A stretch of 64,000 nucleotides of DNA from an uncultured Lachnospiraceae bacterium (GTDB taxonomy: Bacteria > Bacillota > Clostridia > Lachnospirales > Lachnospiraceae). The translations under genes were made by a program, and so were the position numbers. The DNA is taken from contig CAMUYQ010000010.1 of assembly GCA_947165025.1 (NCBI GenBank), positions 1 through 64,000 of the forward strand, written 5' to 3'. Shown here piece after piece: positions 39,387 to 55,074 of the stretch (position 1 is the stretch's first letter; the number at the start of each line of letters is the position of its first letter). The notes beneath the pieces were generated by a model. That model made no database searches and was not told where the DNA came from. It saw only the letters and a list, made by a program, of their open reading frames with translations.

Positions 39387-39443
39387 GCACCTTGAATGTT
39401 TTATCCATTTGCTCGAAAAGGCGCTTCCGCTCCTTTTCGGTGC
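39387..39443 (-). repeat. Structured intergenic element, copy D (internally deleted)
   Basis: A 57-bp relative of the larger elements at 41.5, 45.5 and 55.0 kb. It keeps the terminal GCACC...GGTGC pair, the ATTTGCTCGAAAAGGCGC junction and the third hairpin: CGAAAAGG pairs with CCTTTTCG (8 bp) and GC with GC. On the minus strand the loop is GGAA, a GNRA tetraloop. The second hairpin and the right arm are missing. It starts 4 bp beyond the mgtE stop and ends 19 bp before the typA ATG. Confidence 0.7.
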
Positions 39444-39447
39444 TGTT

Positions 39448-40797
39448 TTATATCCCAAGTATCCTCGTCGCAAACTGGAAGTATATCAAAAGCGACAGCG
39501 CATCGACGATCGTCGTGATGAACGGCGAGGCCATGACGGCCGGGTCAAAACCGATCTTCTGTGCGATCATCGGCAGAGTGCATCCGACGATCTTTGCGAA
39601 AAATACCGTGACCACAAGTGTCAGGCACACAACGAGCGCAACGACCGCGGACACATGATCGAAGATCATTATCTTTGCAAAACCCGCGACCGCGAGCGTC
39701 AGTCCGCATACGACCGATACCCTGATCTCCTTCCATATTACCTTAAAAATATCCGACCACTCAATCTCATCAAGAGACAGCCCACGGATGATCGTAACGC
39801 TTGCCTGTCCTCCCGCGTTACCGCCCGTGTCCATGAGCATCGGGATAAAGCTTGTCAGAACAACGTATGCACCAAGTGCTTCCTCGTAATGCGTGATGAT
39901 CTTGCCCGTTACCGTTGCACTGATCATGAGCAGGAGCAGCCAGGGGATACGTTTCTTCCACGTTTCAAACGTGTTGGTCTTCATGTACGGCTTGTCCGTA
40001 GGAAGGATAGCCGCCATCTTTTCGATATCCTCCGTAACCTCTTCCTGCAGGATATCGACAACGTCATCGATGGTGATGATACCGACAAGACGGCCCTCGT
40101 TATCAACGACCGGCATCGTCGTAAGGTCATATTTCTGGAACATTCTGGCGACCTCTTCCTGGTCGGTCATCGTGTTCGTGCTGATCACGTTATCATTCAT
40201 GAATTCGGAAACGTGCTCATCCGGCGGGTTCAGAAGAAGGTCCCTGAGAGACACGGTGCCGCGAAGATGGCGTCCCAGATCGAGAACGTAACATGTATCT
40301 ATCGTTTCCTTGTCAACACCGACTCTCCTGATCCTGTCGATACATTCCTGAACGGTGAGATTTTCCTTGAGGTCTACAAACTCGACCGTCATCAGACTTC
40401 CGGCCGAATCCTCCGGGTATCTGAGAAGGTGGTTGATGTCGCGCCTTGCCTCGGGATCTGCGTTTGCCAGAAGTTTTTTAACAAGTCCGGCAGGCATCTC
40501 CTCCATAAGGTCGGCAGCATCGTCGGCCATCAGGTTGTTGATGATGTTGGCCGCCTCACGGTCGGTAAGAGTAGTGATGATCTCCTGCTCTATCTCGACA
40601 GGCAGAAATGCGAACACGTCGGCAGCGATACTCTTCGGAAGTATCCTGAACACCTTGACCTGTTCCTCATGCGACAGCTCCTCGAGAACCGATGCGATAT
40701 CCGCTTCATTCCATTCGGCAAGCTCACTTCGGAGTCGGGTATACTGCTTCTCTTCAACAAGCTGAAGTATTTCTTCCATCGTCATTTTTTCTTCCAT
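39448..40797 (-). CDS. mgtE: Magnesium transporter MgtE
   Basis: A 449-aa Mg2+ channel/transporter. It has the N-terminal superhelical domain (residues 1-130, LRSELAEWNEADIASVLEEL, MADDAADLMEEMP), two CBS domains (about 135-260, LLNPPDEHVSEFM, GRLVGIITIDDVVDI) and five membrane helices with the pore motif PMLMDTGGNAGGQAS (about 320). Lengths and spacing are standard. I see no Mg2+ riboswitch in the 35 bp between it and the upstream gene. Confidence 0.95.
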   Translation of the reverse strand: MEEKMTMEEILQLVEEKQYTRLRSELAEWNEADIASVLEELSHEEQVKVFRILPKSIAADVFAFLPVEIEQEIITTLTDREAANIINNLMADDAADLMEEMPAGLVKKLLANADPEARRDINHLLRYPEDSAGSLMTVEFVDLKENLTVQECIDRIRRVGVDKETIDTCYVLDLGRHLRGTVSLRDLLLNPPDEHVSEFMNDNVISTNTMTDQEEVARMFQKYDLTTMPVVDNEGRLVGIITIDDVVDILQEEVTEDIEKMAAILPTDKPYMKTNTFETWKKRIPWLLLLMISATVTGKIITHYEEALGAYVVLTSFIPMLMDTGGNAGGQASVTIIRGLSLDEIEWSDIFKVIWKEIRVSVVCGLTLAVAGFAKIMIFDHVSAVVALVVCLTLVVTVFFAKIVGCTLPMIAQKIGFDPAVMASPFITTIVDALSLLIYFQFATRILGI

Positions 40798-40832: not shown

Positions 40833-41477
40833 CTATCCGGCGAAAATCATTGCTTTGTCATTTACGAGCGCATATAAGGTCGGCTCCGGCTCGAGGATCT
40901 TTGCTCTTGCCGATGTAAGATCGGTGATGTCAGCCGTTATCCTGTCAGGATCTTCCGTGAGGATAGAAATGGTCACGTTCTCGCCGTAATCCTTTTCGTG
41001 TATCACATAACCCTTCTGCATGGCCTCGCGCTCAATCTTTGTAAGATCGTTATAATCGCACACGGTCTTTATAAGAAACCCGTTTATCTTTCTGATGATC
41101 TCGCAGTTTGCAAGACCTTCTTTGACCGCAGCAGAATACGCTCGCACCAGTCCGCCGGTACCCAGAAGAGTCCCCCCGAAGTATCTCGTTACTACAACGC
41201 ATGCATTCGTGACATGCTCTCCCGCAAGTACATCCAGCATCGGGCGGCCCGCCGTTCCGGACGGCTCTCCGTCATCGGAGCACCTCGTCTTCTCGCCGTT
41301 GTCTCCGACGATAAAAGCGCTGCAGTTATGCCGCGCATCCCAGTACTTCTTCTTCATTGCCGCAACAAACTGCACGGCCTCCTCCTCGGAAGAGACCGGC
41401 TCTATCGTAGCTATGAAGCGGGATTTCTTTTCCTCAATCTCGCCTGTTGCGCCCTTATACAGTGTGTACCATTCCAT
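40833..41477 (-). CDS. YigZ/IMPACT family protein
   Basis: A 214-aa protein of the UPF0029/YigZ family. The N-terminal IMPACT domain (1-125) shows EEKKSRFIATIEPV, DARHNCSAFIVGDNG, CSDDGEPSGTAGRPML and VTRYFGGTLLGTGGLVRAYS, the family signature. A small C-terminal ferredoxin-like domain follows. Eukaryotic IMPACT affects translation control, but the bacterial role is unsettled. Its leader contains an extra copy of the arm of the structured repeat just upstream. Confidence 0.9.
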   Translation of the reverse strand: MEWYTLYKGATGEIEEKKSRFIATIEPVSSEEEAVQFVAAMKKKYWDARHNCSAFIVGDNGEKTRCSDDGEPSGTAGRPMLDVLAGEHVTNACVVVTRYFGGTLLGTGGLVRAYSAAVKEGLANCEIIRKINGFLIKTVCDYNDLTKIEREAMQKGYVIHEKDYGENVTISILTEDPDRITADITDLTSARAKILEPEPTLYALVNDKAMIFAG

Positions 41478-41489
41478 GAATATTACTCA

Positions 41490-41510
41490 GGTGCGTGTCA
41501 AATGTTTTGA
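41490..41510. repeat. Extra copy of the arm of structured element A
   Basis: GGTGCGTGTCAAATGTTTTGA matches the arms of the adjacent element (GGTGTGCATCAAATG on the left at 41514, and GGTGTGTATCAAATGTTTTT read from the right on the other strand). It lies 24 bp outside the element in direct orientation, as if an arm had been duplicated or an older insertion had left a partial copy. Confidence 0.6.
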
Positions 41511-41513
41511 TCC

Positions 41514-41645
41514 GGTGTGCATCAAATGATTTCTCGAAAACGCGCTCCCGCTCCTGTTCAGCCGCAGCTGACGCTAGGCTCGAAAACACCTCGCCAAGCG
41601 CAGGCGACTTCACAAGGTTTTCTCGAAAAACATTTGATACACACC
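41514..41645 (-). repeat. Structured intergenic element, copy A (132 bp)
   Basis: The ends form a long stem: on the minus strand GGTGTGTATCAAATG pairs with CATTTGATGCACACC (one wobble). Inside, GCGCTtGGC pairs with GCCtAGCGT, around the loop GAGGTGTTTTCGA. The third hairpin has GC-GGGA-GC, a GNRA loop. The core is about 80 percent identical to copy B by eye, but the arms are a different sequence. It fills the gap between the PBP gene and yigZ. No ORF or transposase is inside. Confidence 0.8.
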
Positions 41646-41657
41646 TGGTACCTTTCT

Positions 41658-44363
41658 CTATTGTGCGGGCGCTCCCTGGAGTGCGTTGAGAAGCGCCTGC
41701 TGCTGCAGTGCCTGTGCCGCTGCCGCCTGCTGCTGCAGAAGAGCAGCCTGTGCTGCTGCCGCGTTAGGATCAGCTGCCGCATTCGGATCAAGTCCGAGTG
41801 ATGCCGCTGCAGGATCGACTATCGGAACGAGGCCCGCTGCCTGTGCCTGAAGCAGGTTGTAGTAATCCTGCGCATTAACTCCGTTGATCTGACTGTGTTC
41901 ACAGAATCCTTCGGCAGTCGGCTCGCCCTCATATGCATACGGACATGTGCTCGTTGCTTTCTGTCCGGTCATGGCACATACAAGTCCCGTATCAAATACG
42001 CTGCCGTAATGATTCGTACAAGGTTCCGTAGGAACCGTACCCGTTGCAAAGTATTCGGTTATCGCGCTTCCGTCAGCGCGGCAGATATCCGTTACAAGTC
42101 CGCCCGTTCTCTTACATACGGTCGCGGTCGTGATCCCTTCGGGCATCGTGAACGACTTGTATTCCTTACCCTCGTGCACGCGGCTCATGACTGCCTTCCA
42201 AAGAGTCTTTGCGGTATTCGTCTCACCGCTTCCGTTCATGTGAACGTTGTTGTCATATCCGCTCCATGTACAGCATGTATAGTACGGAGTGAATCCCGAG
42301 AACCATACGTCGACGTTACTTGTTGTCGTACCTGTCTTACCTGCGATCGCCATTCCGTCAAATCTGACTCTCGCACCGGTACCTTTTGTGACAACGTCTT
42401 CCATCGCATCGGTCAGCAGGAATGCCGTCGTCTCCTTGAGCACGCGTCTGGTCTTCGGAACGTTATCGATCAGAACGTTTCCGTCATGATCGAGTATCTT
42501 CGTATAGAACATCGGCTTGATATATGTACCGCCGTTTGCGATAGTAGCAAATGCGGCCGTCATCTCCAGGTTCTTGATACCGTCGGTAAGTCCGCCGAGT
42601 GCAAGCGCCTGGGTAACATCAGATGAGATCGATCCGTCACGCTCCGTCCTTCTGTCGACAAGTGTCGTGAATCCGAAATTTAACAGATAATCGAATCCGA
42701 GCTGCGGTGTTATCTCTGTAAGAGTCTTAACCGCGACGATATTGAGCGACTGCTCGATACCGTATCTGTATGTACATATTCCTTTATATCCGCTGTACCA
42801 GTTCTTGACCGGTCTTCCGTTTGCGTAGCTGTACGGCTCGTCGACCTGAGTAGAGGCAAGTGATTTTCCGGCAGCGTCAAGCGCCGGGGCATATGCAGCC
42901 AAGACCTTGAAACACGATCCGGGCTGACGCTTTGTATCGGTAGCACGGTTAAGTGTAAGTGAAGCTTTCTTCGCACCGCGTCCACCGACAACCGCCTTGA
43001 CCTGACCCGTTGACTGCTCGATGATAGTGATCGATGCCTGGGGCTGAGGCGTGAGCGAAACGGTCTCGGTCACAAACTTCATGCCGGGTCTTTCCGCTTC
43101 AACATCGGCCTTGAACTCATCGATCGCCTCCTGAGCTTCCTCTTCCGTGTCAAATATACTGTTGAAGCCTTTTCCTCTCTTCTCCTTGAAATGCTTTTCG
43201 AAATACTGCGTGGAGAAATTGACGGCATCGTTTTCCGAATCCGTGTATGATGCTTCGTACTTCAGGTAGTATCTTGTCTTGGGCGGATAGTTGTCCTCGT
43301 TTGCAAACTCCTCATCACATATTTTCTGGATAGTCGGATCCTGCGTGGTGAATATGGACAGACCGCCGCTGTACAGCGCATTGTATGCCTGCGTATATGA
43401 ATAGCCGAGATTTTCCTGAAGGTCATTGATGACCTGCTCGGTAAGCTCATCGACAAAGTATGTGTAGATCGTCTTCTTTTCTACCTTCTCGTTTACGACC
43501 TGGATCCTTGAATAAACGTCGTCGGCCATAGCCTCGGCAAACTGCGCTTCGTTAATGTATCCCTGGTCGCGCATCTTGGTAAGTACTTCCTCGCGTCTCT
43601 TTGCGTTGTTATCGGGATGCGAGATCGGGTTCCACTTTGAAGGATTCTGCGTGATACATGCAATTACCGCACTCTCGGAAATGTTAAGGTCGGATACGTT
43701 CTTTCCGAAGTATCTCTGCGATGCTGCCTGAACACCGAGCGTTCCCTGTCCTAAGTTGATCGTGTTCAGATAGTTCTCGAGTATCTGGTCCTTGCTCATC
43801 TGCTTCTCGAGCTGAACCGCACAGTACTGTTCCTGGAACTTACGCTTGAACTTGTCGACCATACTGCTCTCTTCGGTCCATGAAGTAAAGACGTTGTTCT
43901 TCAGAAGCTGCTGTGTGATGGTCGAAGCACCCTGATGCAGGTTTCCGCTCAGGGCCTTAACACCAGCACGCATGATACCTTTTATATCGATACCGTTATG
44001 TGTGTAAAATCGCTCATCCTCTATCGCAACGAAAGCATGCTGCATGTCGAGCGGTATCTTATCAAGCTTTACATACACACGGTTTGAATTCTCGGCAATA
44101 AGCTTTGTCAGCTGGTTTCCTTCGCTGTCGTAAACCGTCGTCGAATATCCGGCAGGTGAGACGTCAACGTTTGAAATGTCGGGAGCCGTATCGACAACAC
44201 CCATGAACAGGCCTATCCCCGCGCACAGTCCTGCCACGCCGACAACGACAACGCCAAATGTGAGAAGTTCAAACAGGCTTACGCCGAAGAACTTCCCGAC
44301 CTTTGTCGAAGGCGAATTCATCGCTTTCTGTCTTCTTTTTATCCCTCTTCTTCCGTAGTTCAT
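41658..44363 (-). CDS. Class A penicillin-binding protein (PBP1A type)
   Basis: A bifunctional peptidoglycan glycosyltransferase/transpeptidase, 901 aa. After a basic tail and one membrane helix (about residues 28-52), the GT51 domain shows EDERFYTHNGIDIKGIMRA, QGASTITQQLLKN and NYLNTINLGQGTLGVQAASQ. The transpeptidase domain has SxxK as PGSCFKVLA, SxN as EQSLNIVA and KTGT as AGKTGTTTS. The last 80 residues are Ala/Gln/Pro-rich low complexity, presumably exported linker. AAAGGA precedes the ATG. Structured element A lies 12 bp downstream of its stop. Confidence 0.95.
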   Translation of the reverse strand: MNYGRRGIKRRQKAMNSPSTKVGKFFGVSLFELLTFGVVVVGVAGLCAGIGLFMGVVDTAPDISNVDVSPAGYSTTVYDSEGNQLTKLIAENSNRVYVKLDKIPLDMQHAFVAIEDERFYTHNGIDIKGIMRAGVKALSGNLHQGASTITQQLLKNNVFTSWTEESSMVDKFKRKFQEQYCAVQLEKQMSKDQILENYLNTINLGQGTLGVQAASQRYFGKNVSDLNISESAVIACITQNPSKWNPISHPDNNAKRREEVLTKMRDQGYINEAQFAEAMADDVYSRIQVVNEKVEKKTIYTYFVDELTEQVINDLQENLGYSYTQAYNALYSGGLSIFTTQDPTIQKICDEEFANEDNYPPKTRYYLKYEASYTDSENDAVNFSTQYFEKHFKEKRGKGFNSIFDTEEEAQEAIDEFKADVEAERPGMKFVTETVSLTPQPQASITIIEQSTGQVKAVVGGRGAKKASLTLNRATDTKRQPGSCFKVLAAYAPALDAAGKSLASTQVDEPYSYANGRPVKNWYSGYKGICTYRYGIEQSLNIVAVKTLTEITPQLGFDYLLNFGFTTLVDRRTERDGSISSDVTQALALGGLTDGIKNLEMTAAFATIANGGTYIKPMFYTKILDHDGNVLIDNVPKTRRVLKETTAFLLTDAMEDVVTKGTGARVRFDGMAIAGKTGTTTSNVDVWFSGFTPYYTCCTWSGYDNNVHMNGSGETNTAKTLWKAVMSRVHEGKEYKSFTMPEGITTATVCKRTGGLVTDICRADGSAITEYFATGTVPTEPCTNHYGSVFDTGLVCAMTGQKATSTCPYAYEGEPTAEGFCEHSQINGVNAQDYYNLLQAQAAGLVPIVDPAAASLGLDPNAAADPNAAAAQAALLQQQAAAAQALQQQALLNALQGAPAQ

Positions 44364-44429
44364 ATATATCCTTTGTTACAAAACCAATACTAAAATTATA
44401 TTTTAACAAATTATCGCTTCATCCGCAAT

Positions 44430-45422
44430 TCACAGCGTGATCCGAAGCTCATACGTCCATCCGCCGGAAGTATCATATTTCTCGTACTCATCGATGATGT
44501 TTCCAAGAATGTTCGCTATGAACACCTGTATATCAACCGATACATCCTCCCTCTTCGTTCCGGTAACGGTGAGCTTGTATTCGCACTTTCTCGATGTCAC
44601 ATATCTGCTGTCAACATCAAGCACGGCATTGTCGCACTTAAGTCCTTCAACAAGCGCCAGTATCCAGAGCGAGAATGTAAGATCCGCCATTGCAAACCTC
44701 GGAACATCACCGTACAGGCAGCTCTTGACCTCGCCGACAGTAACATCTTTGTTATTCTTCAGCGCATCATTCATGTTGTCGGTAATTATGTTCTTAAGTT
44801 CACCCGTCTTGAACACGGCAGTCGTCTGAAGACGCAGCATTTTGTCGCAGGCTTTTTTTACAAAAGCGATATAAGAATCATCAAGCTGCCTGCGCTTTAA
44901 AAATGCGTCAAGCACTCTGTTGAAGAACGGGGAAATCTTGTTGTAACTGTACTGCTGGCGAAGCAGTGAAACCTTCAGGCGCTCAAGTGTCTCGGCAAAT
45001 ACCTTTTCATCGTTCTTGAGCTCATTGATCCTGCGGACAAGGTCGCGATAGATGAGTGCCTCATCCATGGATGCCTGTACACCGTCAACTATATCCTCGA
45101 TATTCCACGGAGGCAGGAACACCTTGCGGACGCAGTCCTCGTTCACGATCATCGGCACATACTTCGGATCGGTAAGATCCATGCAGACATTCAGTATAAC
45201 ATCCGGATACTCCCTCGCGCATTTCTGCACAAAATCATGCACCCTCATATCCGGTATGAAGCCGTCGGTCAGTATGAGAAGGAATTCCCTTTCGCCCAGC
45301 AGTTCAAACACCTGCGCAGCCGAAGCGGCGTGGATGAACTCGATCCCTTCGTCACTGAACCTGCCCTTGAGGTTGTTCGCAATTCTCTCGTTTGCCTGGA
45401 GGTATAAGATACTTTTATCCAT
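44430..45422 (-). CDS. Pseudo-receiver protein of unknown output
   Basis: Not assigned to a named family. Residues 1-120 of the 330-aa protein have a receiver-like pattern: start ILYLQANERIANNL instead of the acidic pair, acceptor region LLILTDGFIPDMRVHDFV with a possible Asp, and a late Lys (VRKVFLPPW). The middle (about 125-200) is helical and resembles a dimerisation region. The C-terminus (about 225-330) has mixed alpha/beta sequence that could be a degenerate ATPase-like domain (ADLTFSLWILALVEGLKCDNA; IIDEYEKYDTSG). No conserved kinase boxes are visible. It is monocistronic between PBP and htpG. Confidence 0.6.
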   Translation of the reverse strand: MDKSILYLQANERIANNLKGRFSDEGIEFIHAASAAQVFELLGEREFLLILTDGFIPDMRVHDFVQKCAREYPDVILNVCMDLTDPKYVPMIVNEDCVRKVFLPPWNIEDIVDGVQASMDEALIYRDLVRRINELKNDEKVFAETLERLKVSLLRQQYSYNKISPFFNRVLDAFLKRRQLDDSYIAFVKKACDKMLRLQTTAVFKTGELKNIITDNMNDALKNNKDVTVGEVKSCLYGDVPRFAMADLTFSLWILALVEGLKCDNAVLDVDSRYVTSRKCEYKLTVTGTKREDVSVDIQVFIANILGNIIDEYEKYDTSGGWTYELRITL

Positions 45423-45480
45423 AATGTAGTTATTTTAACACATTTTTAGATATAATTACACGATATGTTGTGTTTGGTCC

Positions 45481-45613
45481 GGTGTGCAAAACAGTATTTC
45501 CTCGAAAACGCGCTTTCGCTCTTGTTCAGGCGTAGCCGGCGCTAGACTCGAAAAAACCTCGTCAAGCGCAGACGCCCTCACGAGGTTTTCTCAGAAAAAC
45601 TGTTTTTCACACC
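45481..45613 (-). repeat. Structured intergenic element, copy B (133 bp)
   Basis: Ends GGTGTG...CACACC, with AAAACAGT and ACTGTTTT completing a long arm stem. On the minus strand the second hairpin is GGCGT, GCGCTtGAC and GTCtAGCGC, ACGCC around the loop GAGGTTTTTTCGA, and the third hairpin carries GC-GAAA-GC. AAAACCTCG just inside the arm is exactly complementary to CGAGGTTTT at the loop, a possible pseudoknot. It occupies the gap between htpG and the 330-aa protein gene. Confidence 0.8.
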
Positions 45614-45633
45614 TATATAATGATACTCAATAA

Positions 45634-47763
45634 TTACTTGGTCAGTTTCATCATGATCTCATTGCTCCTTGCCACAAACTTGGTCATGGCCTCAGCCGAG
45701 AGCGGCCTGTTTGCAAGGACCGCAAGATCGTAGAGCTGGGATGCGAACATCTCCGCATCATCACCCTTTTTGTTCTCAAGCAGGAACTTTACAAGATCGT
45801 TGTTACTGTTGAGCACGAGCGTCTCGCCTTCGGAACCGAACATGCTCATATCCATCGCACCGCCCATCGAATACATCTTCATCATATCCTGCATCCTTCT
45901 GGATTCCTCGGATACAGTAAGTACCGATGATATATTTGCATTTTTGAGCGCTTCGAGCTTTATCGTAAGCTTGTCGTTCGAAAGAGCCTTATGGAAGAGC
46001 TTTGTCAGTGTCTTCTCATCCTTCTCTGTCTTCTTTCTGTCATCTTCAGATGCTTCCACCTTTGATGAATCCGTGATATCTGCATCGATTCGCATGAACT
46101 TCACGTCTTCCATCTTCGACTCGAGCTGGTTGATGAACGGCTGATCAATGTTATGTGTCAGAACTACCGCATCAAGTCCTTCCTCACGGAACATGTTGAT
46201 GTACTGCGACTGCTGCTGGACATCGGTGACGTAATAAACCGTCTTTCTGATCTTGTCCTTTTCATCCTTTGCATCCTTTGCATCCTTTGCATCGTCTGCG
46301 GTATCGCCGTCGGATGATTTTTCCTCCTCAACAACCTCAGCCTCGACCTTGTCACCGTTTTCATCCGTGGCCTCTTCCATCTTCCTGTCGGGAAGTTCCA
46401 GGCACTCGGGAAGTGTCATGTATTTTCCGTCAATATCCTTGAACAGGATGTAATCTGTCATCTTCTCGCAGAACTTGTCGTCCTTGAGGCAGCCGTACTT
46501 TATGAAAGGCGAGATGTCATCCCAGTACTTCTCGTATTCCTCTTTCTCGGTCTTGCACATTCCGGCAAGCTTGTCGGCAACCTTTTTGGAGATGTAATCG
46601 CTTATCTTGTTGACGAATCCGTCGTTCTGAAGTGCGCTTCTGGATACGTTGAGCGGAAGGTCAGGACAGTCGATGACACCCTTTAAGAGCATCAGGAATT
46701 CCGGGATGACTTCCTTAATATTGTCCGCGATGAACACCTGGTTGTTGTACAGTTTGATCACGCCCTCGATCGATTCGTATTCCATGTTGATCTTCGGGAA
46801 ATACAGGATGCCCTTCAGGTTGAACGGATAATCCATGTTCAGATGGATCCAGAACAGCGGCTCCTTGTAGTCCATGAACACCTTACGGTAAAAATCAAGG
46901 TATTCCTCTTTCGTACAGTCCCCTGGGTGCTTTGCCCAAAGCGGGTTGGGATCGTTGATCGGGATCTCGCGCTTTACGATCTTGGCCATTTCCTTTGCGG
47001 GGCTGATCTCAACCTTTTCCTTCTTGCCATCCTTTTCCTGCTCCTCGTACTTTGCCTCTTCGGTAAACTTTTCGATGACTGTATCCTTCTCGGTAACCTC
47101 GTCAACAGGCACGTTCTCGTACTGTGTCTCGGCTCCTTCCTTTACGAGGAAGATAGGTGTCGGCATGAACGAGCAGTACTTCTTCAGCACTTCTCTCATC
47201 CTGTATTCGTTGCAGAATTCAAGTGAATCATCATTAAGGAAAAGGGTGATCGTTGTTCCGACGCTGTCGCGGTCACCGTCTTCCATTGAATACTCTGTAC
47301 CGCCGTCGCATTCCCAGTGAACGGCCTTTGCGCCTTCCTTGTATGAAAGCGTGTCGATATGTACCTCATCGGCAACCATGAATGCCGAATAGAATCCGAG
47401 ACCGAAATGACCGATTATCTGGTCATCGTTCGTCTTGTCCTTGTACTTCTCAAGAAATGCCGTAGCTCCCGAAAATGCTATCTGCGTGATGTACTCTTCG
47501 ACCTCATCGGCATCCATTCCGAGTCCGGTATCCGAGAACGAAACCTTCTTTCCCTCGGGATCAACGGTTATCCTGATCTCCATGTCCTTTCCGTCGGGAA
47601 TGCTGTACTGGCCGATCACATCAAGTTTTTTAAGCTTCGTGATTGCGTCGCAGCCGTTGCTGACAAGTTCGCGCGCAAAGATATCGTGATCGGAATACAT
47701 CCACTTCTTGATGATCGGGAAGATATTCTCGCTGTTGATCGTTAAACTGCCTTTCTTAGCCAT
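45634..47763 (-). CDS. htpG: Chaperone HtpG (Hsp90)
   Basis: A 709-aa Hsp90 chaperone. The ATPase domain shows LVSNGCDAITKL, the DTGLGM motif, GHFGLGFYSAF, and a conserved SRSALQNDGF in the middle domain. The start is set at the ATG at 47763, which has AGAGGTAG upstream; extending to 47838 would read through the leader hairpin. An unusual charged insert (about residues 475-510, DAK repeats) is encoded by 9-bp DNA repeats. It is transcribed from a consensus promoter with a CIRCE operator just upstream, so HrcA control is likely. Confidence 0.95.
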   Translation of the reverse strand: MAKKGSLTINSENIFPIIKKWMYSDHDIFARELVSNGCDAITKLKKLDVIGQYSIPDGKDMEIRITVDPEGKKVSFSDTGLGMDADEVEEYITQIAFSGATAFLEKYKDKTNDDQIIGHFGLGFYSAFMVADEVHIDTLSYKEGAKAVHWECDGGTEYSMEDGDRDSVGTTITLFLNDDSLEFCNEYRMREVLKKYCSFMPTPIFLVKEGAETQYENVPVDEVTEKDTVIEKFTEEAKYEEQEKDGKKEKVEISPAKEMAKIVKREIPINDPNPLWAKHPGDCTKEEYLDFYRKVFMDYKEPLFWIHLNMDYPFNLKGILYFPKINMEYESIEGVIKLYNNQVFIADNIKEVIPEFLMLLKGVIDCPDLPLNVSRSALQNDGFVNKISDYISKKVADKLAGMCKTEKEEYEKYWDDISPFIKYGCLKDDKFCEKMTDYILFKDIDGKYMTLPECLELPDRKMEEATDENGDKVEAEVVEEEKSSDGDTADDAKDAKDAKDEKDKIRKTVYYVTDVQQQSQYINMFREEGLDAVVLTHNIDQPFINQLESKMEDVKFMRIDADITDSSKVEASEDDRKKTEKDEKTLTKLFHKALSNDKLTIKLEALKNANISSVLTVSEESRRMQDMMKMYSMGGAMDMSMFGSEGETLVLNSNNDLVKFLLENKKGDDAEMFASQLYDLAVLANRPLSAEAMTKFVARSNEIMMKLTK
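46263..46298. repeat. 9-bp tandem repeat within htpG
   Basis: Three perfect copies of CATCCTTTG plus one changed copy (CATCGTCTG). On the coding strand they give repeated Asp-Ala-Lys in a charged linker. Because the unit is three codons, copy-number change by slippage would stay in frame. Confidence 0.85.
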
Positions 47764-47806
47764 TTTTACTACCTCTTTTCCATATTTATTATTCCTTACG
47801 GTCAGC

Positions 47807-47836
47807 GGAGAAGTAATTCCTCGAAAATACTTCTCC
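47807..47836 (-). repeat. Hairpin in the htpG leader, possible remnant (E) of the structured element family
   Basis: A perfect 9-bp stem, GGAGAAGTA (47807-47815) and TACTTCTCC (47828-47836), encloses a 12-nt loop that on the minus strand reads TTTTCGAGGAAT. The same TTTTCGAGGAA string follows the third hairpin in element B, so this looks like a derivative with only arms and junction left. It lies in the 5' leader of htpG, about 45 nt before the ATG, and so could also affect translation with temperature. Confidence 0.5.
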
Positions 47837-47861
47837 ACTTCCCTTATTCATGTTCAAAAAA

Positions 47862-47890
47862 ATGATAACGCGGCCCGGAAACCATGTCAA
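47862..47890 (-). promoter_or_regulatory. htpG promoter
   Basis: TTGACA (47890-47885), 17 bp, TATCAT (47867-47862) on the minus strand: a near-consensus sigma-A promoter giving a leader of roughly 90 nt. Confidence 0.8.
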
Positions 47891-47897
47891 GAAAAAT

Positions 47898-47924
47898 TTA
47901 GCACTCAGCTGGGCTGAGTGCTAA
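47898..47924. promoter_or_regulatory. CIRCE operator (HrcA binding site)
   Basis: TTAGCACTC and GAGTGCTAA separated by exactly 9 bp: a perfect CIRCE. It ends 7 bp upstream of the htpG -35 and also contains the last codons and stop of the PrsA-like gene (stop at 47905-47907). CIRCE usually controls groES/groEL and the hrcA-dnaK operon, so its use at htpG places Hsp90 in the HrcA regulon here. Confidence 0.9.
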
Positions 47925-49032
47925 CAACAGTAAAATACTTATCATAAATCTCGAAAAAGCTCGTAGTTTCAACGACTCCGCCGGAATCGAAGTGTATGCT
48001 GTCAAACAGCGGCTTGTTCAGATTGGAGGTGAGTGTCGGCACAAAACTGTTATAGACCTCATCGAACGCCTCCTGCTTGCGCTTCTCGACGATCTTCAAC
48101 TTGTTTGTGTCCGTCTCTTCCGGATTGAACGTCGTCACGCAGTATATCAAGTGATAACCGTACTCGGTCTCGACTATGTCACTGACCTCCCCGGCTCCGA
48201 GATTGAACGCAGCCTCTTCAAATTCCTTCGGCATGATACCGCGGCCGAAGCTGTATTCGCTTTTCGTGTCCTCATTGTAATCGGCAGCCAGCACTTCAAA
48301 TGCCACACCGTCGTTAAGCTGCTGCCTTATCTGTGCGATCTTGGCAAGCGCCGCCTTTTTCTCTTCATCGGAATACTCGTGCCTTATCCCGTTTGAATCA
48401 ACATACGACGTCTTGATCAGTATCGTTCTGACAGTTATCGTCCTTGCCTCGTCATCGCTTATCTCAGGATTGATGTCGGCCGTCACCGTTTCGTAAAGCT
48501 TGTTTGCTATCGCAAACTCCCTGTACAGTTTTGCGATCACGTCCATGTTGACGTCAAGATAGTTCCTCTCTCCTTCCGTCAGCGAATCGAAGTACTCTCT
48601 TGCCGCGGCATTGCACTTTGCTTCCTCATCCTCGTCAAGAGATACTCCCTGCTCGACGGCAAGGATGTTCATCGTCTTGATCTGTGCGACCCTTGCAAGG
48701 ATGTTTTCCTTGTACGAATCCTCAAGTGTTCCCTCACCGACCGGCACAGACCAGATGCGGTCTCCGAAAACGCTGCTGTATTGATTTTCGGAGTTGGCAA
48801 GGTACACCATTATCTCGTTCTTCATGCACGGGTGGCCTTCAAGGCGGAACACCTCATCTTCGAGAAAATCACTTGTCAGCACGACTTCTGTCGGAAGCGT
48901 ATCCTTTCCGCAGCCCGAAAGCATTACCGGTGCAAGTATCACAGGTATCAAAAAAAGTGGCAGGAGCCCTGCCACTTTCGGCTTGTTATCTGATTGTTTC
49001 TTACTGTATGTCAATGTGCGATGCGACTTCAT
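47905..49032 (-). CDS. PrsA-like lipoprotein foldase (parvulin PPIase)
   Basis: An extracytoplasmic peptidyl-prolyl isomerase of about 375 aa. A basic start and hydrophobic segment end in the lipobox LSGC, so the mature protein begins at a lipid-modified Cys. A helical SurA_N-like chaperone region (about 60-200) precedes a parvulin domain (about 205-320; VRTILIKTSYVD, EYSFGRGIMPKEFEEAAFNL, VETEYGYHLIYCV). The start is the ATG at 49032, with AAGGA 8 nt upstream, inside the end of the preceding gene; an earlier in-frame ATG at 49080 lacks such a site. Its final codons are part of a CIRCE operator. Confidence 0.87.
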   Translation of the reverse strand: MKSHRTLTYSKKQSDNKPKVAGLLPLFLIPVILAPVMLSGCGKDTLPTEVVLTSDFLEDEVFRLEGHPCMKNEIMVYLANSENQYSSVFGDRIWSVPVGEGTLEDSYKENILARVAQIKTMNILAVEQGVSLDEDEEAKCNAAAREYFDSLTEGERNYLDVNMDVIAKLYREFAIANKLYETVTADINPEISDDEARTITVRTILIKTSYVDSNGIRHEYSDEEKKAALAKIAQIRQQLNDGVAFEVLAADYNEDTKSEYSFGRGIMPKEFEEAAFNLGAGEVSDIVETEYGYHLIYCVTTFNPEETDTNKLKIVEKRKQEAFDEVYNSFVPTLTSNLNKPLFDSIHFDSGGVVETTSFFEIYDKYFTVVSTQPS

Positions 49033-49426
49033 CAACCGCATCCTTTGCAGCCTTCTTGACCTTCTTGGCGGTCTTGTCAAAATCCTCGAACTCGAACTCG
49101 CTCGTCTTCTTATCGTCCTTCACAAGACCTACGCCCTTTGCTGCATTCTCGGCCTTTGCCATGATATCCTGGGCAGCTGATTTAACAGCCTTCTTAAGTG
49201 TATCCTTTGCATCGCCTGCAGCTTCCCTGATGTCTTCAGCGGCATCCTTGAGTTCGGGATCAAGCGAAACATACGATCTCTCGCCTGCCTTCTCTTCAGC
49301 AGAATCCGAATCGCCGTCACAGCTGCATGAACACTTCTTGTTGTTCATCTCACAAAAATACCACAATCCGGCAAGAGCAGCTCCGGTAACACCTACAAAT
49401 GTAATAAACTTTCCAAAACCTTTCAT
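49001..49426 (-). CDS. Small membrane protein with amphipathic helical repeats (YtxH-like)
   Basis: A 141-aa protein with an N-terminal membrane helix (about residues 7-25), a Cys-containing stretch KKCSCSCDGDSD, and a Lys/Ala/Glu/Asp-rich helical tail (AAEDIREAAGDAKDTLKKAV, AKKVKKAAKDAVDEV) with an 11-residue-type periodicity, similar to YtxH or LEA-like stress proteins. No enzymatic motif. It overlaps the PrsA-like gene by 32 bp and begins directly after the DUF2225 gene, so the three are probably co-transcribed. Confidence 0.7.
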   Translation of the reverse strand: MKGFGKFITFVGVTGAALAGLWYFCEMNNKKCSCSCDGDSDSAEEKAGERSYVSLDPELKDAAEDIREAAGDAKDTLKKAVKSAAQDIMAKAENAAKGVGLVKDDKKTSEFEFEDFDKTAKKVKKAAKDAVDEVASHIDIQ

Positions 49427-50280
49427 CAGACTTCTCCTTTCATCTTCATTTCCATAAGAACCTGATCTTTGAGATCTCTTGCACGATCCTTGATCCTGTT
49501 GTTTGCTGTTTTGCTCATCAGGATCGAAGCGATCATCTTCTGTGCGACATCATATTTCTCAAACCTTGCGGACAATACCGCAAGCAGGTAATCGATCGTT
49601 ATCTCATCCATTCCCGCTATCGGGAAGTTCTCCTTCTGGCGTGCATTGACGAATCCCTCGTATGCACTCTGAAGCGCCTCATTTTCGTCATCGCGAAGCT
49701 GCGCCATAACACTGTCATAATCAGGCGTATCATCGGGAAGTGTTTCCTTCTTGCCTCTGATGATCCACGCAAGCTTAAGGCATACATATGCTTTCTCGCT
49801 GTCCTTTGCACGCTTTACGATAGATGACGCAAGCGCGAGCTGATACCTCTGGATGGCATCATCATATGACAGTATCGGATTGTTGGCAACTCCGTGAACT
49901 TTTCCGCCAATGCCCTCTCTGAGCAGCTTGACCTGGGCCGCAGGGAGCGATGTGAAATACCTTGTAAGCGTTGCATATCCGCAGTACGGGCACACAACAA
50001 CATCGTACTTCGCGGGATCGAACTTTTCGTACTTAGGGCGAAGATCCGGATCCTGTCCGAGAAGCCTTGCCTTTCCGGTCCTTACCGCTCTGAACGAAAA
50101 TCCCTTGCCGCATACCGGACATTCCGCCGACTTGTCAAACAGCACGTCATTCTCGTCAAAAGGCGCTTCCTCCTTCGGCTTTTCAACCGGCTTGGGAGCT
50201 TCCTTCTTTTCCTCCTGGTAGATATCGGCCCCTTCAAGCTTTCCGAGACCGAGGTTTGACAATCCATCCAATAACCCCAT
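49426..50280 (-). CDS. DUF2225 family protein
   Basis: A 284-aa protein of the DUF2225 family. After a Pro/Glu/Lys-rich start there is a zinc-ribbon-like pair CPVCGKGFSF and CPYCGYATLTRYF, separated by the family signature RTGKARLLGQDPDLRPKYEK and DPAKYDVVV. The rest is helical with TPR-like character. Function unknown across the family; the paired CxxC motifs suggest zinc binding. GGAGG precedes the ATG; the following gene begins at the last base of its stop. Confidence 0.87.
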   Translation of the reverse strand: MGLLDGLSNLGLGKLEGADIYQEEKKEAPKPVEKPKEEAPFDENDVLFDKSAECPVCGKGFSFRAVRTGKARLLGQDPDLRPKYEKFDPAKYDVVVCPYCGYATLTRYFTSLPAAQVKLLREGIGGKVHGVANNPILSYDDAIQRYQLALASSIVKRAKDSEKAYVCLKLAWIIRGKKETLPDDTPDYDSVMAQLRDDENEALQSAYEGFVNARQKENFPIAGMDEITIDYLLAVLSARFEKYDVAQKMIASILMSKTANNRIKDRARDLKDQVLMEMKMKGEV

Positions 50281-50309
50281 ATGTAACCTCCTGAACCTTT
50301 ACGGCTTTA

Positions 50310-52007
50310 TTATTTCTGATCCGGCAGTTTGAAACTGCTCTTTAATGAAACTACTCTGTTAAACACGGGTGCACCTTCCACCGAATCCTTGTAATCGACG
50401 CAGAAGAATCCGTTTCGCACAAACTGGAAAGATTCGTATGCTTTTGCATCCTTAAGCGAAGGCTCGAGCATACAGCCTTCAACGACCTTCAGTGAATCGG
50501 GATTGAGGTTGAGGCTTCCGTCCTCATTATACACTCCCTTTTCTTCGTCGATAAGGTTTTCGTACAGTCTTACCGTAGCAGGGAATGCGGTTGCTGCATT
50601 TACCCAGTGGATCGTACCCTTAACCTTACGGCCCACTTCCCTTCCGTCCTGACGCGTCTCAGGATCGTATGTGCAGTGGACACATGTAACATTTCCTTCG
50701 CTGTCTGTCTCATACGAAGTACACTTTACGAAATACGCGTTCATGAGGCGTACCTCATTGTCCGGGAAAAGCCTGAAATATTTCTTAACCGGCTCCGCCA
50801 TAAAATCATCCCGTTCAATATACAGTTCCCTTGAGAAAGGAACCTTTCTCGAACCGAGAGATTCGTTCTCGAGATTATTCGGGATCTCGAAATATTCCGT
50901 CTCACCTTCAGGGTAATTGTCTATAACAAGCTTTACCGGATCAAGGATAGCCATCACTCTCGGACGTGAGAGCTTAAGATCTTCCCTGATGCAGTACTCC
51001 AGCATCGCATAGTCCGCAGAAGACTGGCTCTTTGACACACCGCACAGATCCACGAATTTTCTTATCGATTCCGGTGTAAAGCCGCGGCGTCTCAGAGCAG
51101 CTATGCTGACAAGTCTCGGATCATCCCATCCGTCAACTATGCCGTCTTCAACAAGCTTCTTGATGTATCTCTTTCCGGTAACGACATTTGTCAGATACAT
51201 CTTTGCAAACTCGATCTGTCTGGGCGGATGCGGATACTCAAGTTCTCTTACGACCCAGTCGTAAAGAGGTCTGTGATCTTCAAATTCAAGCGTACAGCAT
51301 GAATGTGTAACGCCTTCTATCGCATCCTCGATCGGATGCGCAAAATCATACATCGGGTATATGCACCATTTGTCACCGGTGTTGTGATGCGACATATGAG
51401 CCACCCTGTATATGACCGGATCTCTCATGTTGATGTTGGGACTCGCCATGTCTATCTTTGCGCGAAGAACCTTTTCACCGTCAGCATACATTCCGTTCTT
51501 CATGTTCTCGAACAGTTCAAGGTTTTCCTCAACGCTCCTGTTCCTGTACGGTGAGTCTTTACCGGGTGTGTCAAACGTTCCGCGGTATTCTTTGATCTCA
51601 TCGGCAGACAGGTCACACACGAATGCCTTGCCCTTTTTGATAAGCTTTACAGCGGCCTCGTACATGCTCTCAAAATAATCCGATGCGAAGAACAGTCTGT
51701 CCTCCCAGTTTGCACCGAGCCACTTTACATCCTCTTTTATCGATTCGACAAACTCGATCTTTTCCTTTGTCGGATTGGTATCGTCAAATCTCAGATTGAA
51801 CTTACCGCCGTATTCCTTTGCAAGTCCGTAGTTGAGAAGTATGGCCTTGGCATGTCCTATATGCAGATATCCGTTCGGCTCAGGCGGAAAACGTGTATGA
51901 ACAGTCTCGTAGTTTCCTTCCTCGAGATCCTTGTCTATCATCACCTCGATAAAGTTTCTCGAGACGGTTTCCTCATTTTCGATTGTTTCTGTCTGTATGT
52001 CGCTCAT
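50310..52007 (-). CDS. glnS: Glutaminyl-tRNA synthetase
   Basis: A class I tRNA synthetase of 565 aa, normal length. The HIGH motif is [12 protein letters not shown], preceded by RFPPE, then [12 protein letters not shown], and the tRNA-contacting [14 protein letters not shown], followed by a two-barrel anticodon-binding region. No GlnRS-specific extra domain is present. Having GlnRS does not exclude a GatCAB route for Asn. It follows the 456-aa unknown gene by 15 bp. Confidence 0.95.
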
Positions 52008-52022
52008 ATTACTATTCCTTTA

Positions 52023-53393
52023 TCATGATGTCAGGAAATTCCTGTGTGTTACAAGCTCGTCCGGCAGGGCATTGCCGGCCTTTTCAACACGGCCGCATGC
52101 TATGTCAAACAGATGAAGATCATGTGCGATCTTGTGGTTGTAACGTTCTATCAGCTGCGTATACTGCGGGTTGGTAGCAATAGCACCCTCGCGTATGACT
52201 TTCGAGAACGGGCAGTAGTTGAACAGGATAAAACGAACGACCTTGTTGTGCCTAAGAGCTCCCGAACTCTCAAACTGGATGTATGTCGCATAGTCCGCAA
52301 CAAACATTTCCTTGTAGCTGTTACGATGCTTCAGCATCGCGGCCTTGATACGCTCTTTGGCCTCCTGGGAAAGGTCGTGATTCTTCTTGTATGTATCAAT
52401 ATAATCGACGTAATCACTCGTCAGACTTCTCTCTGACAGATCGTTCCATCTCGCACCCTGGATCCTCTTGCAAAGTTCCCATCTGAACTCCGCGCATATG
52501 TTGATGAACACTTTCGAGAGTTCCTCTTCCTGTGCGATCGGAAGAATGAACCTTCCGGGTGTCGTACGCTTTGCGCCTGTGATCTCCTGCCACATGGCAG
52601 CTCTCGTTCCGACAACAGGCATCAGGATGATGTCAGGAAGTACCTCGACCTGGATGAACGCCTTGTCAAGGCCAAGTTCCGGTGCCGTGAACACCGTCTG
52701 TCTGAAGAACAGCGAATAATCAATGGCCTTTACAACGTTAAGAGTCTTGTTGACTGCCTCGAAACTGACAAGCGATTTATCGAGCGGCTTCGTCAGCGTC
52801 TGCTCAGAGAAGAACGGAACAAATGTCGTGATCCTCGCACTCATCATACGGTTGGCACTTTTGAACATGTTGTCTATCTCAAACGTTACCCTTGCCTTGC
52901 CGTCCTGAAGCGCTTCCTTCTCCTGCTGCTCGGTGATCGAGCCTTCTTTTCTCTGCTTTCTGAGAGTCGTGATGTAATCGGTGGAAAAATCATTGACCGA
53001 CGGATCCTTCTTGCAGCTGTAAACAAGTCTCAGCCACTGGTAAAATGTGAACACGCGCATCTCAGGGTCAAACCCTATATTCGTGGATGCTTCATAGAGC
53101 ATCTGCGTGTTCTCTTTTCCCGCAAGCTTCTCGTCGATATATCCGAAATAGAAGAACATCATCAGTTCATCCGGGATGTTCGTATCCTGCAATGACTTGA
53201 AAAATGCAAACTTGTAAATGTCGTAATAATATGAGGTGAGCTCCTTACGCAGTCTTCTTGTCGCATCATCGGACGCTCCCTGATCGGACATCGCCGCAAA
53301 AGTGTTTATCTTCTGACATATCTTCGCTTTGTCGGCATCTCCGAGCCCCGCATATGTCAGTATGTTCATACAAGAATTAGAAAAATCAGGCAT
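52023..53393 (-). CDS. Unknown 456-aa cytoplasmic protein
   Basis: No family recognised. No signal peptide or membrane segment. The sequence is soluble and mostly helical, rich in aromatic residues and Lys/Arg, with repeated patterns such as YYYDIYKFAFFKSL, FYFGYIDEKL, FTFYQWLRLVYS, and a mixed central part (IQVEVLPDIILMPVVGTRAAM). It has a good promoter and a GGGGG ribosome site, and sits upstream of glnS with 15 bp between. It may be a lineage-restricted protein of anaerobic Firmicutes, but that is a guess. Confidence 0.7.
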   Translation of the reverse strand: MPDFSNSCMNILTYAGLGDADKAKICQKINTFAAMSDQGASDDATRRLRKELTSYYYDIYKFAFFKSLQDTNIPDELMMFFYFGYIDEKLAGKENTQMLYEASTNIGFDPEMRVFTFYQWLRLVYSCKKDPSVNDFSTDYITTLRKQRKEGSITEQQEKEALQDGKARVTFEIDNMFKSANRMMSARITTFVPFFSEQTLTKPLDKSLVSFEAVNKTLNVVKAIDYSLFFRQTVFTAPELGLDKAFIQVEVLPDIILMPVVGTRAAMWQEITGAKRTTPGRFILPIAQEEELSKVFINICAEFRWELCKRIQGARWNDLSERSLTSDYVDYIDTYKKNHDLSQEAKERIKAAMLKHRNSYKEMFVADYATYIQFESSGALRHNKVVRFILFNYCPFSKVIREGAIATNPQYTQLIERYNHKIAHDLHLFDIACGRVEKAGNALPDELVTHRNFLTS

Positions 53394-53430
53394 CTGCCAT
53401 CCCCCGTTTTGGTCGCAAAATCACCAATAC

Positions 53431-53459
53431 ATTATAATGTAAAAGGGCGTTAATTACAA
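53431..53459 (-). promoter_or_regulatory. Promoter of the 456-aa gene
   Basis: TTGTAA (53459-53454), 17 bp, TATAAT (53436-53431) on the minus strand. The -10 is at the centre of a 14-bp palindrome TACATTATAATGTA. Confidence 0.6.
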
Positions 53460-53465
53460 CAAAAA

Positions 53466-54899
53466 TCATCCGCCGCATTTACCGCAGGAACTGCAGTCAC
53501 CCTGCCTGTCCCAGCAGTATGTACAGAGTTTGGATTTGTCTATGCCGACTGACTTGACCATGTCGTCAAGGCGGTGGAAACGAAGGGATGTAAAGCCAAG
53601 CTGCTTTCTGATCTCTTCGAGCATCTCTTTGTAATTCGTGCTGTCCGGATCGGCGTAATCGGCAAGCACCTTCTCCGGAACATCCTCACCTTCTCTTTCT
53701 CTTATCACACGTCTCGTGATAAGGTCATATTCGGAGTTGGATCTTGAGAAGTTCAGGAACTTACATCCGTACAGAAGAGGCGGACACGCGGGACGGACAT
53801 GAACTTCCTTGGCACCGCTCGAGTACAGGAATTCCGTAGTCTCACGAAGCTGTGTTCCGCGAACTATCGAGTCATCAATAAGGATCATTGATTTTCCCCT
53901 GATAAGAGTATCAACGGGAATGAGCTTCATATGTGCTATAAGGTTACGCATGCTCTGATCGGTCGGCATGAACGATCTCGGCCATGTTGGTGTGTACTTG
54001 ATGAACGGTCTTGCAAACGGGATGCCTGATTTGTTGGCATATCCTATCGCATGCGCGATACCGGAATCGGGAACGCCCGCAACGATATCGGGATGAACGT
54101 CGTCACGTCCCGCGAGCATGGCACCGCAGCTGTACCTCATATCCTCAACGTTCACTCCCTCGTATGTTGAGTTCGGATATCCGTAATATATCCACAGGAA
54201 CGTACATATCTTCATAACATCCTTCGCGGGACTGACCGTCTCGTATCCGTCCGGAGTTATGTAAACTATTTCTGCAGGCCCGAGTTCTTTCTCATCGCTG
54301 TATCCGAGATTTATATATGCAAAGCTTTCAAACGAAACGCAGTAGCTGTCTTCCTTCTTACCGATCATGACAGGGGTTCTTCCGTACAGATCCCTTGCGG
54401 CATATATTCCCTCGGGTGTCATTATCATGAGTGTCAGGGATCCGCGTACTCTTTCCTGAACGTACTTTATTCCCTCAACAAACGAATCCTTCTGATTGAC
54501 AAGTCCCGCTGCCAGTTCCGTAGGATTGATGTTACTGCCGCTCATCGCAAGAAACTGGGAATTGCCTTCCAGCACTTCATCAACAAGCTCGTCAAGATTG
54601 TCTATGCGTCCGACCGTCGTGATGGCATAAGTTCCAAGATGAGACCTGATGAGAAGCGGCTGGGGTTCATAATCGGATATGCAGCCGATACCGAGATTAC
54701 CTTTGAGTTCGGTAACATCCCTGTCAAACTTCGTCCTGAACGGTGAGTTCGTGATGTTATGGATCGCACGGTCAAATCCGTTCTCGCCGTACACGGTCAT
54801 GCCGGCACGTCTTGTTCCGAGATGCGAATGATAATCGGTTCCGAAGAACAGATCCCAGACACAGTCTTTTTTTGATGCTACTCCGAAAAATCCACCCAT
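53466..54899 (-). CDS. PurF-like amidophosphoribosyltransferase lacking the glutaminase Cys
   Basis: The C-terminal phosphoribosyltransferase half is intact, with the PRPP loop MILIDDSIVRGTQLRET and the spacing of PurF. The N-terminal glutaminase-like half starts MGGFFGVAS, not MCGI/VFG, so the catalytic Cys is replaced by Gly. The HNGNL-type glutamine pocket reads TTVGRIDN. The end, CTYCWDRQGDCSSCGKCGG, is a Cys cluster that could bind metal. It is therefore probably not a normal glutamine-dependent PurF: it may use ammonia or do something else. AAGGAG precedes the ATG. Confidence 0.8.
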   Translation of the reverse strand: MGGFFGVASKKDCVWDLFFGTDYHSHLGTRRAGMTVYGENGFDRAIHNITNSPFRTKFDRDVTELKGNLGIGCISDYEPQPLLIRSHLGTYAITTVGRIDNLDELVDEVLEGNSQFLAMSGSNINPTELAAGLVNQKDSFVEGIKYVQERVRGSLTLMIMTPEGIYAARDLYGRTPVMIGKKEDSYCVSFESFAYINLGYSDEKELGPAEIVYITPDGYETVSPAKDVMKICTFLWIYYGYPNSTYEGVNVEDMRYSCGAMLAGRDDVHPDIVAGVPDSGIAHAIGYANKSGIPFARPFIKYTPTWPRSFMPTDQSMRNLIAHMKLIPVDTLIRGKSMILIDDSIVRGTQLRETTEFLYSSGAKEVHVRPACPPLLYGCKFLNFSRSNSEYDLITRRVIREREGEDVPEKVLADYADPDSTNYKEMLEEIRKQLGFTSLRFHRLDDMVKSVGIDKSKLCTYCWDRQGDCSSCGKCGG

Positions 54900-54932
54900 G
54901 TTTTTGCTCCTTCTTATTTTTTATTTGTATCA

Positions 54933-55074
54933 GCACCGCAGAAGTATTTACCGTTTGTGAGAAAAGCTTTGGAGGACGTTGTTACTTGACGAGGTTTTTT
55001 CGAGTCTAGTAACGTGACGTCCGGAAAGGAGCGAAAGCGCCTTTTCGAGCAAATGTGTAAATGCTTCAAGGTGC
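54933..55074 (+). repeat. Structured intergenic element, copy C (142 bp, inverted relative to A and B)
   Basis: The plus strand corresponds to the minus strand of A, B and D. The arm stem is GCACC/GGTGC, GAAG/CTTC, ATTTAC/GTAAAT and TTG/CAA, again a different sequence from the other copies. The second hairpin pairs GGACGT/ACGTCC, GTTACT/AGTAAC, GAC/GTC around the same loop GAGGTTTTTTCGA. The third hairpin carries GC-GAAA-GC. It lies between the GT-C gene and the PurF-like gene; the stop codon of the GT-C gene is inside its right arm. Confidence 0.82.

Follow-up and report, generated by a model that had tools for sequence, protein, structure and literature searches.

What are the three intergenic elements that share a core but differ at their ends within the 64,000-nt stretch of DNA analysed here (the window: positions 1 to 64,000 of contig CAMUYQ010000010.1, from an uncultured Lachnospiraceae bacterium), and why do the two ends of each change together? 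An earlier note on this stretch had singled out these elements, copies A, B and C, of 132-142 bp each, and had taken the paired change in their arms and second hairpin as a sign of selection on a folded RNA or single-stranded DNA. On balance, the elements probably represent a new structured interspersed repeat family of Lachnospiraceae, similar to REP/BIME and REP/REPIN repeats and distinguished by a branched core. The copies are non-coding, chromosomal and dispersed, with a length of approximately 130-150 nt across the family.

A branched core carried on copy-specific arms

The strand described here is the one we call the GNRA strand. The element is closed by a basal stem formed from copy-specific arms, with a median length of 15 bp and a 5-95% range of 10-19 across 99 rows (110 model matches minus nine duplicates from overlapping loci and two fragments of 27 nt, with one nested fragment included). 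The arms lead into UUUCC/GGAAA, followed by a tandem GA step, CGAG/CGAG, which is exchanged for Watson-Crick pairs in some copies such as that at locus L030, and then AAAAC/GUUUU. The junction above this stem bears a short hairpin, which holds GAAA, GCGA, GGGA, GCAA or GAGA, and a long arm capped by CUU-NNN-GAGG-U-loop-CGA-NNN-UAG (in DNA, CTTRNSGAGG..TCGASNYTAG), a hairpin that contains another tandem GA. The "GNRA loop" of the earlier note survives as a label: the string is present in either drawing, but folding programs pair GCG with CGC around the loop NRAG. An alternative fold through AAAACCU/AGGUUUU, noticed by eye, is possible in subfamily 1.

Folding z-scores for copies A, B and C were -8.2, -5.3 and -6.7 on the GNRA strand and -4.3, -5.4 and -5.0 on its complement (200 shuffles each), and none of the 200 shuffles folded as well as the native sequence for any of the three copies on either strand.

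Helices covary and one strand is kept foldable

The complementary arms and paired hairpin changes quoted for copies A to C are exact in the sequence, and the same behavior extends to the wider family. Two-sided compensated changes occur in 20 of the 32 core pairs among 29 copies from this genome, and in 30 of 32 when 111 cores (110 distinct) are drawn from this genome, its genus and other Lachnospiraceae. These 111 cores come from 100 chosen sources, and loci L340-L347 were never scanned with the model. In this larger set 95.2% of cells are paired compared with 69.9% in shuffles, and the covariation score is 0.716 relative to 0.233 for shuffled alignments and at most 0.117 for slid ones. The core alignment was fitted to the model and thus leans towards structure, and the shuffles ignore relatedness; nevertheless the covariation is little in doubt, because the effect is large and pairing extends to the arms, a part that the model does not include. 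The apical NNN triplets are exact reverse complements in 128 of 137 places in loci from other Lachnospiraceae and in 52 of 54 from this genome and its genus, with eleven triplet types across both sets together and GU pairing in 8 of the 11 non-exact cases. The pattern used to fetch the other Lachnospiraceae required only R..Y and S..S at these positions, and triplet complementarity is therefore only partly built into the count.

Paired change by itself is no proof of selection on a fold, and on this point the earlier note claimed more than covariation can carry. The case for selection on one strand is made instead by separate evidence, namely strand-asymmetric mismatches, tandem GA loops and a lower folding energy for the GNRA strand. 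With symmetric mutation and no role for either strand, complementary mismatches should be equally common. In the arms of the GNRA strand, GU exceeds AC (40 vs 18), GA/AG exceeds CU/UC (44 vs 11) and UU exceeds AA (15 vs 3), or 99 to 32 for GU, GA and UU together against their complements; GG and CC are equal at 6 each, and a looser arm alignment running beyond the stems shows no GU excess (112 vs 135). Two-by-two loops in the extended arms are GA/GA in 12 of 31 cases, with no other of the 144 types seen more than once, and A.G stands as the first pair past the arm in 50 of 98 copies. With RNA parameters, 96 of 98 copies from this genome and genus fold at lower energy on the GNRA strand, and with DNA parameters 94 of 98 do. 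In other genera the GNRA strand is lower in 35 of 40 and, weakly, 24 of 40, respectively. The 98-copy counts, here and for arm donors and gene context, omit the nested fragment L021_1590, while the 40 derive from 42 uncut complete matches above 50 bits after omission of L245 and L304, which lie at locus edges. The GNRA strand is thus kept foldable, as RNA or as single-stranded DNA.

Probable template switching between the arms

An alternative source of paired change is DNA template switching, in which one arm of an inverted repeat corrects the other and the folded molecule need not be selected at all. Genomes G026 and G031 share a copy beside the frame at 40833-41477, presumably a YigZ-like gene, in which a mirrored six-base block differs on both arms (AGCGTC/GACGCT in one; GGCAAA/TTTGAT, in which two pairs are imperfect, in the other). 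In the G026 arm, 11 nt of the core hairpin of the element recur, a pattern that points to template switching. Loci L249, L251 and L291 from other genera have perfect or nearly perfect arms of 46-66 bp, which could hardly be maintained by selection on single pairs. The mechanism is described for RNA stems in the portion of PMC8794818 used here, which treats rRNA gene histories: a single event can change several bases in a compensatory manner, and the copied sequence may also originate elsewhere than in the opposite stem. The accompanying prediction that both G-C and U-A pairs should rise (PMC8794818, same portion) holds for G-C only, as the arms contain 427 G-C, 212 C-G, 384 A-U and 294 U-A pairs. 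Moreover, the mismatches and loops in the arms show strand asymmetry and belong to types tolerated in a folded strand, and the short core helices covary strongly. Template switching without selection on the fold is therefore an unlikely account of the whole pattern; rather, selection on the fold and template switching probably both act.

A search for nearby donors of arm sequence recovered 16 matches of at least 10 nt compared with 2.7 for shuffled arms (138 copies), some of them tandem arm repeats, and such donors were rejected as a general source.

Copies are dispersed through Lachnospiraceae genomes

The search for homologues was productive. A DNA search with copy B returned 44 matches at E<=10 in this genome, and a covariance model built from 29 of its copies returned at least 50 at E<=1 and at least 46 at E<1e-8, with 150 of 858 candidates scored. 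Matches were found in 28 of 37 genomes of the genus at E<=0.01 and in 20 of 37 at E<=1e-5, and in 1 of 24 genomes outside the genus at E<=0.01 (E 0.0044). Numbers per genus genome vary widely at E<=0.01, from 48 matches in G000 and 25 in G023 to none in 9 genomes. In even samples searched with stricter filters, positives at E<=1e-5 numbered 24 among 295 genomes from the order and 9 among 391 from the class (with no more than 13 and 10 candidates per genome scored, respectively), all from the same family, which the titles of similar records identify as Lachnospiraceae for the positives outside the genus. A pattern scan of GTDB gave at least 116 stretches, with titles naming Butyrivibrio, Robinsoniella, Faecalicatena, Mediterraneibacter, Roseburia and other Lachnospiraceae genera or bearing unspecific labels; one is titled as a 'Bacteroides' metagenome-assembled genome, a label that is unchecked. 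Viral contigs contained no match to the exact pattern, and plasmids and phages no BLAST match to copy B.

Comparison of sites by eye indicates presence and absence of whole copies. At site A the copy is absent in 7 of 10 relatives, the remaining three having one copy of their own, one remnant and one different palindromic repeat, while copies are absent in 8 of 8 relatives at site B and in 9 of 9 at the L153 site.

Several related sequences were also encountered. Genomes G009 and G036 (loci L171-L175) have 11-12 weak model matches each, several at contig ends, which perhaps represent a distant subfamily. All 27 exact matches to the apical module in this genome lie inside covariance model matches; in other genera the apical hairpin also occurs alone, in pairs or in tandem, as with CACTTAGCGAGGTATTTTCGAGCTTAGTG at L252, L262, L271, L294, L296 and L308, in several loci within a GGTAT..ATACC context that resembles a -10 box. 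Another repeat, also palindromic, is present at L160 (G031:C11:3000-6069) and L204 (G031:C194 near 26524-26610); in it CCAACACCGACTTCGTCGGCGTCGCC adjoins a hairpin whose arms vary, for example GTCTCGATTG/CAATCGAGAC, and at L160 it lies nested within a copy of the element described here.

Position relative to genes and to neighboring copies

Few copies lie inside called frames (2 of 46 in this genome, 4 of 52 in the genus and 4 of 40 in other genera), and the median distance from core to nearest called frame is 29-51 nt in the first two sets. This proximity, together with the stable fold, would suit a cis-acting RNA serving neighboring genes as leader, stabiliser or terminator. However, there is no consistent orientation of copies relative to genes: tandem contexts divide sense to antisense 13:8, 9:27 and 8:9 in the three sets, and convergent to divergent contexts 7:3, 3:2 and 4:2, with orientation undetermined for 13 of 46, 7 of 52 and 13 of 40 copies. 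An antisense lean is confined to the genus set (p 0.004), to which genome G023 contributes 23 of the 52 copies. A sense bias to the upstream gene seen with crude gene calls (35 of 47) was removed by stricter frame calls. The terminator scan of copies A and B gave one terminator-like call in A, located inside the core, and none in B, and in neither does a GC stem run directly into a T run as in a Rho-independent terminator. We consider a cis-acting role improbable. A family of trans-acting small RNAs, which would be consistent with a single-strand fold conserved irrespective of gene orientation, is likewise a poor prospect given dozens of scattered copies and a number of promoter-like sites around A and B that is near chance (6 vs a mean of 4.6 in shuffles).

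Copies also show a preferred arrangement relative to each other. Among complete copies at most 1 kb apart, 14 pairs are divergent (15 with L301), two are on the same strand and none is convergent. The tally uses matches at E<=1e-6 (the second at L313 being partial) plus L301, whose second copy is weak (E 0.0032), and leaves aside weak matches to a single hairpin as well as the fragment nested in L021. In genome G061 (L348-L377), many copies of a larger repeat, represented by 67 matching pieces, bear two divergent elements with a variable spacer, and there is a tandem repeat tail, CCAGCTATCCAAGTTGACAAAGCATTAATC. We rejected a composite transposon ended by these elements, as the G061 two-copy unit belongs to the larger repeat and the 216-residue minus-strand frame between two copies at L281 looks like an ordinary gene (no family search was made).

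Ends, flanks and the inheritance of arms

Short, non-coding, dispersed sequences with paired ends invite comparison with an ordinary miniature inverted-repeat transposable element (MITE), whose conserved terminal inverted repeats are read by the transposase that moves it. Here the pattern is reversed, with the middle most conserved and the ends more variable than the core among paralogues, and ends are conserved only in the recent G061 set. The flanks provide no clear target duplication: with outer limits uncertain, shared flank k-mers fall within the shuffled range for k=5-8, and for k=4 the count is 47, with 37.7 as the mean and 45 as the 95% level. An A occupies position -1 outside the arms in 71 of 99 rows, and G and A occupy +1 and +2 in 53 of 99 each; GTAG, which like CGTC tags one end of REP sequences, was not seen in these column counts, although no dedicated scan for it was made, and some copies from other genera have GTC after the stem. 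We give the MITE explanation little credence.

The description of the arms as unrelated, made from three copies, holds only in appearance. Paralogues with 92-100% identical cores have arms approximately 14 to 86% identical per side in ungapped comparisons, where a one-base shift lowers identity, and among older copies the arms diverge faster than the core with pairing kept. On the other hand, arms share a consensus within subfamilies (by eye). At two orthologous sites other than those named below the arms have changed. At the L143 site, similar outer arms enclose a subfamily-1-like core in G033 (L062) and a subfamily-2 core in G011 (L152), as aligned by eye, which raises the prospect that cores may be swapped between subfamilies.

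Arms taken from the insertion site, either through insertion into the loop of an existing hairpin or through inverted duplication of the target, were our first reading, favored by two copies with identical 105-nt cores and arms only 36-50% identical (ungapped) and by an unrelated 11-12 bp hairpin at the L143 site in G031 where G026 has the element (by eye); it is now largely rejected and least credible of all, since one arm sequence is common to 29 distinct, similar G061 copies (fetched with a query holding those arms), the orthologous pairs L064/L065 and L068/L141 keep nearly the same arms, subfamilies share their consensus, copy-free spacers at site A and the L153 site have no arm-like hairpin (by eye), and the G031 hairpin is part of a different repeat, one that is found nested in L160 as well (by eye). 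The arms are thus mostly inherited with the element.

A model for spread and renewal

We propose that the core would be the sequence-specific recognition part for a putative trans-acting factor, and that the element would spread, or be retained, through the ability of one strand to fold when single-stranded. The arms would act as a clamp that depends on pairing alone, with the letters free, and would therefore drift. Compensatory point changes would restore the pairing, as would template switching, possibly a main source of arm change, until the arms of old copies look unrelated. A more far-reaching and tentative version, which we think less likely to be right than wrong, is that these are Lachnospiraceae-wide elements replicated through the folded single strand, with a branched core recognised by a putative factor for mobility or maintenance, distinct from both Y1 transposases and reverse transcriptases. 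Each event would renew the stem through arm-to-arm copying, such that sequence is free and shape is inherited.

Several observations weigh against assignment to a REP/BIME-like family. The case for movement relies on copy number and on comparison of sites between species that are mostly about 79% identical, and the flank comparison (99 rows) gave no clear target-site duplication. Divergent pairs are not independent, with several from the same genomes, and the naive p of 7e-8 overstates the effect; beyond 1 kb other orders occur, convergent at 1.9 kb in L109 and same-strand in L125, L140 and L257, and copies in this genome are mostly singlets. Copies with other arms in G061 would have escaped the query used there. 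This genome, which is 99% complete, has no match to PF01797 (Y1, RAYT-type transposase) and none to PF00078 (reverse transcriptase), and either was rejected as the mover here on that basis; these families are present in 18 and 15 of the 37 genus genomes, respectively. Genus members with few or weak element matches do carry Y1 transposases, and the absence here may therefore be a later loss.

The family offers a natural system in which shape is kept while letters change, and a single genome can hold up to dozens of copies; strain data could thus tell fold selection apart from arm-to-arm template switching. It points to a putative factor responsible for spreading or keeping the repeats in a gut family that is dominant, and it is worth modelling or masking in RNA discovery and in annotation of Lachnospiraceae.

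Copies in the window

The coordinates given in the earlier note for copies A, B and C (Table 1) are confirmed, but the list was incomplete, as a fourth, internally deleted copy, D, lies nearby. Core plus paired arms reproduce the limits of A and B, while C requires outer GCACC/GGUGC pairs. Covariance model R1 matches the three cores on the strands shown with E values of 6.7e-33 to 5.5e-31, matches that hold by construction since all three are among its 29 training sequences. The 3' end of copy D, TTCAAGGTGC, is identical to that of copy C, which suggests that this sequence probably marks the end of the element. An extra 3' arm stands in tandem beside copy A (41480-41530), and an extra 5' arm is similarly duplicated beside the element at L105, upstream of 940.

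Table 1. Copies of the element in the window and their hairpins, with strand given for the GNRA reading.
Feature	Coordinates	Strand	Details
Copy A, complete	41514..41645	-	3' arm 41514-41526, core 41527-41630, 5' arm 41631-41645
Copy A, apical hairpin module	41574..41598	-	CTTGGCGAGG..TCGAGCCTAG; GGC/GCC pair, tandem GA
Copy A, short hairpin	41542..41551	-	GCG/CGC around GGAG; holds GNRA string GGGA
Copy B, complete	45481..45613	-	3' arm 45481-45494, core 45495-45598, 5' arm 45599-45613
Copy B, apical hairpin module	45542..45566	-	GAC/GTC pair
Copy B, short hairpin	45510..45519	-	GCG/CGC around AAAG; holds GNRA string GAAA
Copy C, complete, second subfamily	54933..55074	+	5' arm 54933-54952, core 54953-55055, 3' arm 55056-55074
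Copy C, apical hairpin module	54985..55009	+	GAC/GTC pair
Copy C, short hairpin	55031..55040	+	GCG/CGC around AAAG; holds GNRA string GAAA
Copy D, remnant	39387..39475	-	About 50 middle model positions absent, 15 other bases instead; covariance model match 39406-39475, E 5.7e-5

Comparison with known systems

The statement that no named RNA has this form is borne out by Rfam, which has no match in the window, a best score of 22 bits for one element searched at E up to 10, where the gathering score is 50, and a single tRNA as the only hit in 18 Lachnospiraceae loci. A relation of the L019 arm to tRNA was rejected, with no tRNA in 30 loci. No earlier report naming this repeat family was found in the literature searched, with most subscription journals and supplements outside that search.

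Individual features are shared with several described systems. The enterobacterial ERIC sequences are likewise repeated and folded and have a similar length of approximately 127 bp, but form a single long stem-loop in contrast to the branched core described here, a distinction drawn from their description in the consulted part of PMC2267715. RNA stems under template switching have in common the multibase compensatory change in one event, but constitute a mutation mechanism rather than an element family (PMC8794818, in the same portion as above). Candidate palindromic structured RNAs of human microbiomes are also structured candidates of gut bacteria, some proposed to be REP-like; the palindromic examples named in the sections of PMC8040213 used here are from Bacteroidetes, and the separation from them is again by description, with the 3161 models uncompared.

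The closest likeness is to REP, REPIN and BIME sequences, which in the relevant extracts of PMC3116915 are short, extragenic, non-coding and multicopy, with compensated hairpins and inverted doublets around a less conserved spacer, and copies of the present element at most 1 kb apart are likewise nearly always inverted, in divergent order. REP is defined as a palindrome of 20-40 bp in the part of PMC3733652 consulted, and at 132-142 bp the window elements are several times longer. They are also unlike REP in their branched core, in having no fixed end tag seen in the column counts and no Y1 transposase match in this genome, and in occurring here mostly as singlets. By analogy, we suggest that the element works like a REPIN or BIME, a likeness of behavior rather than a demonstrated membership.

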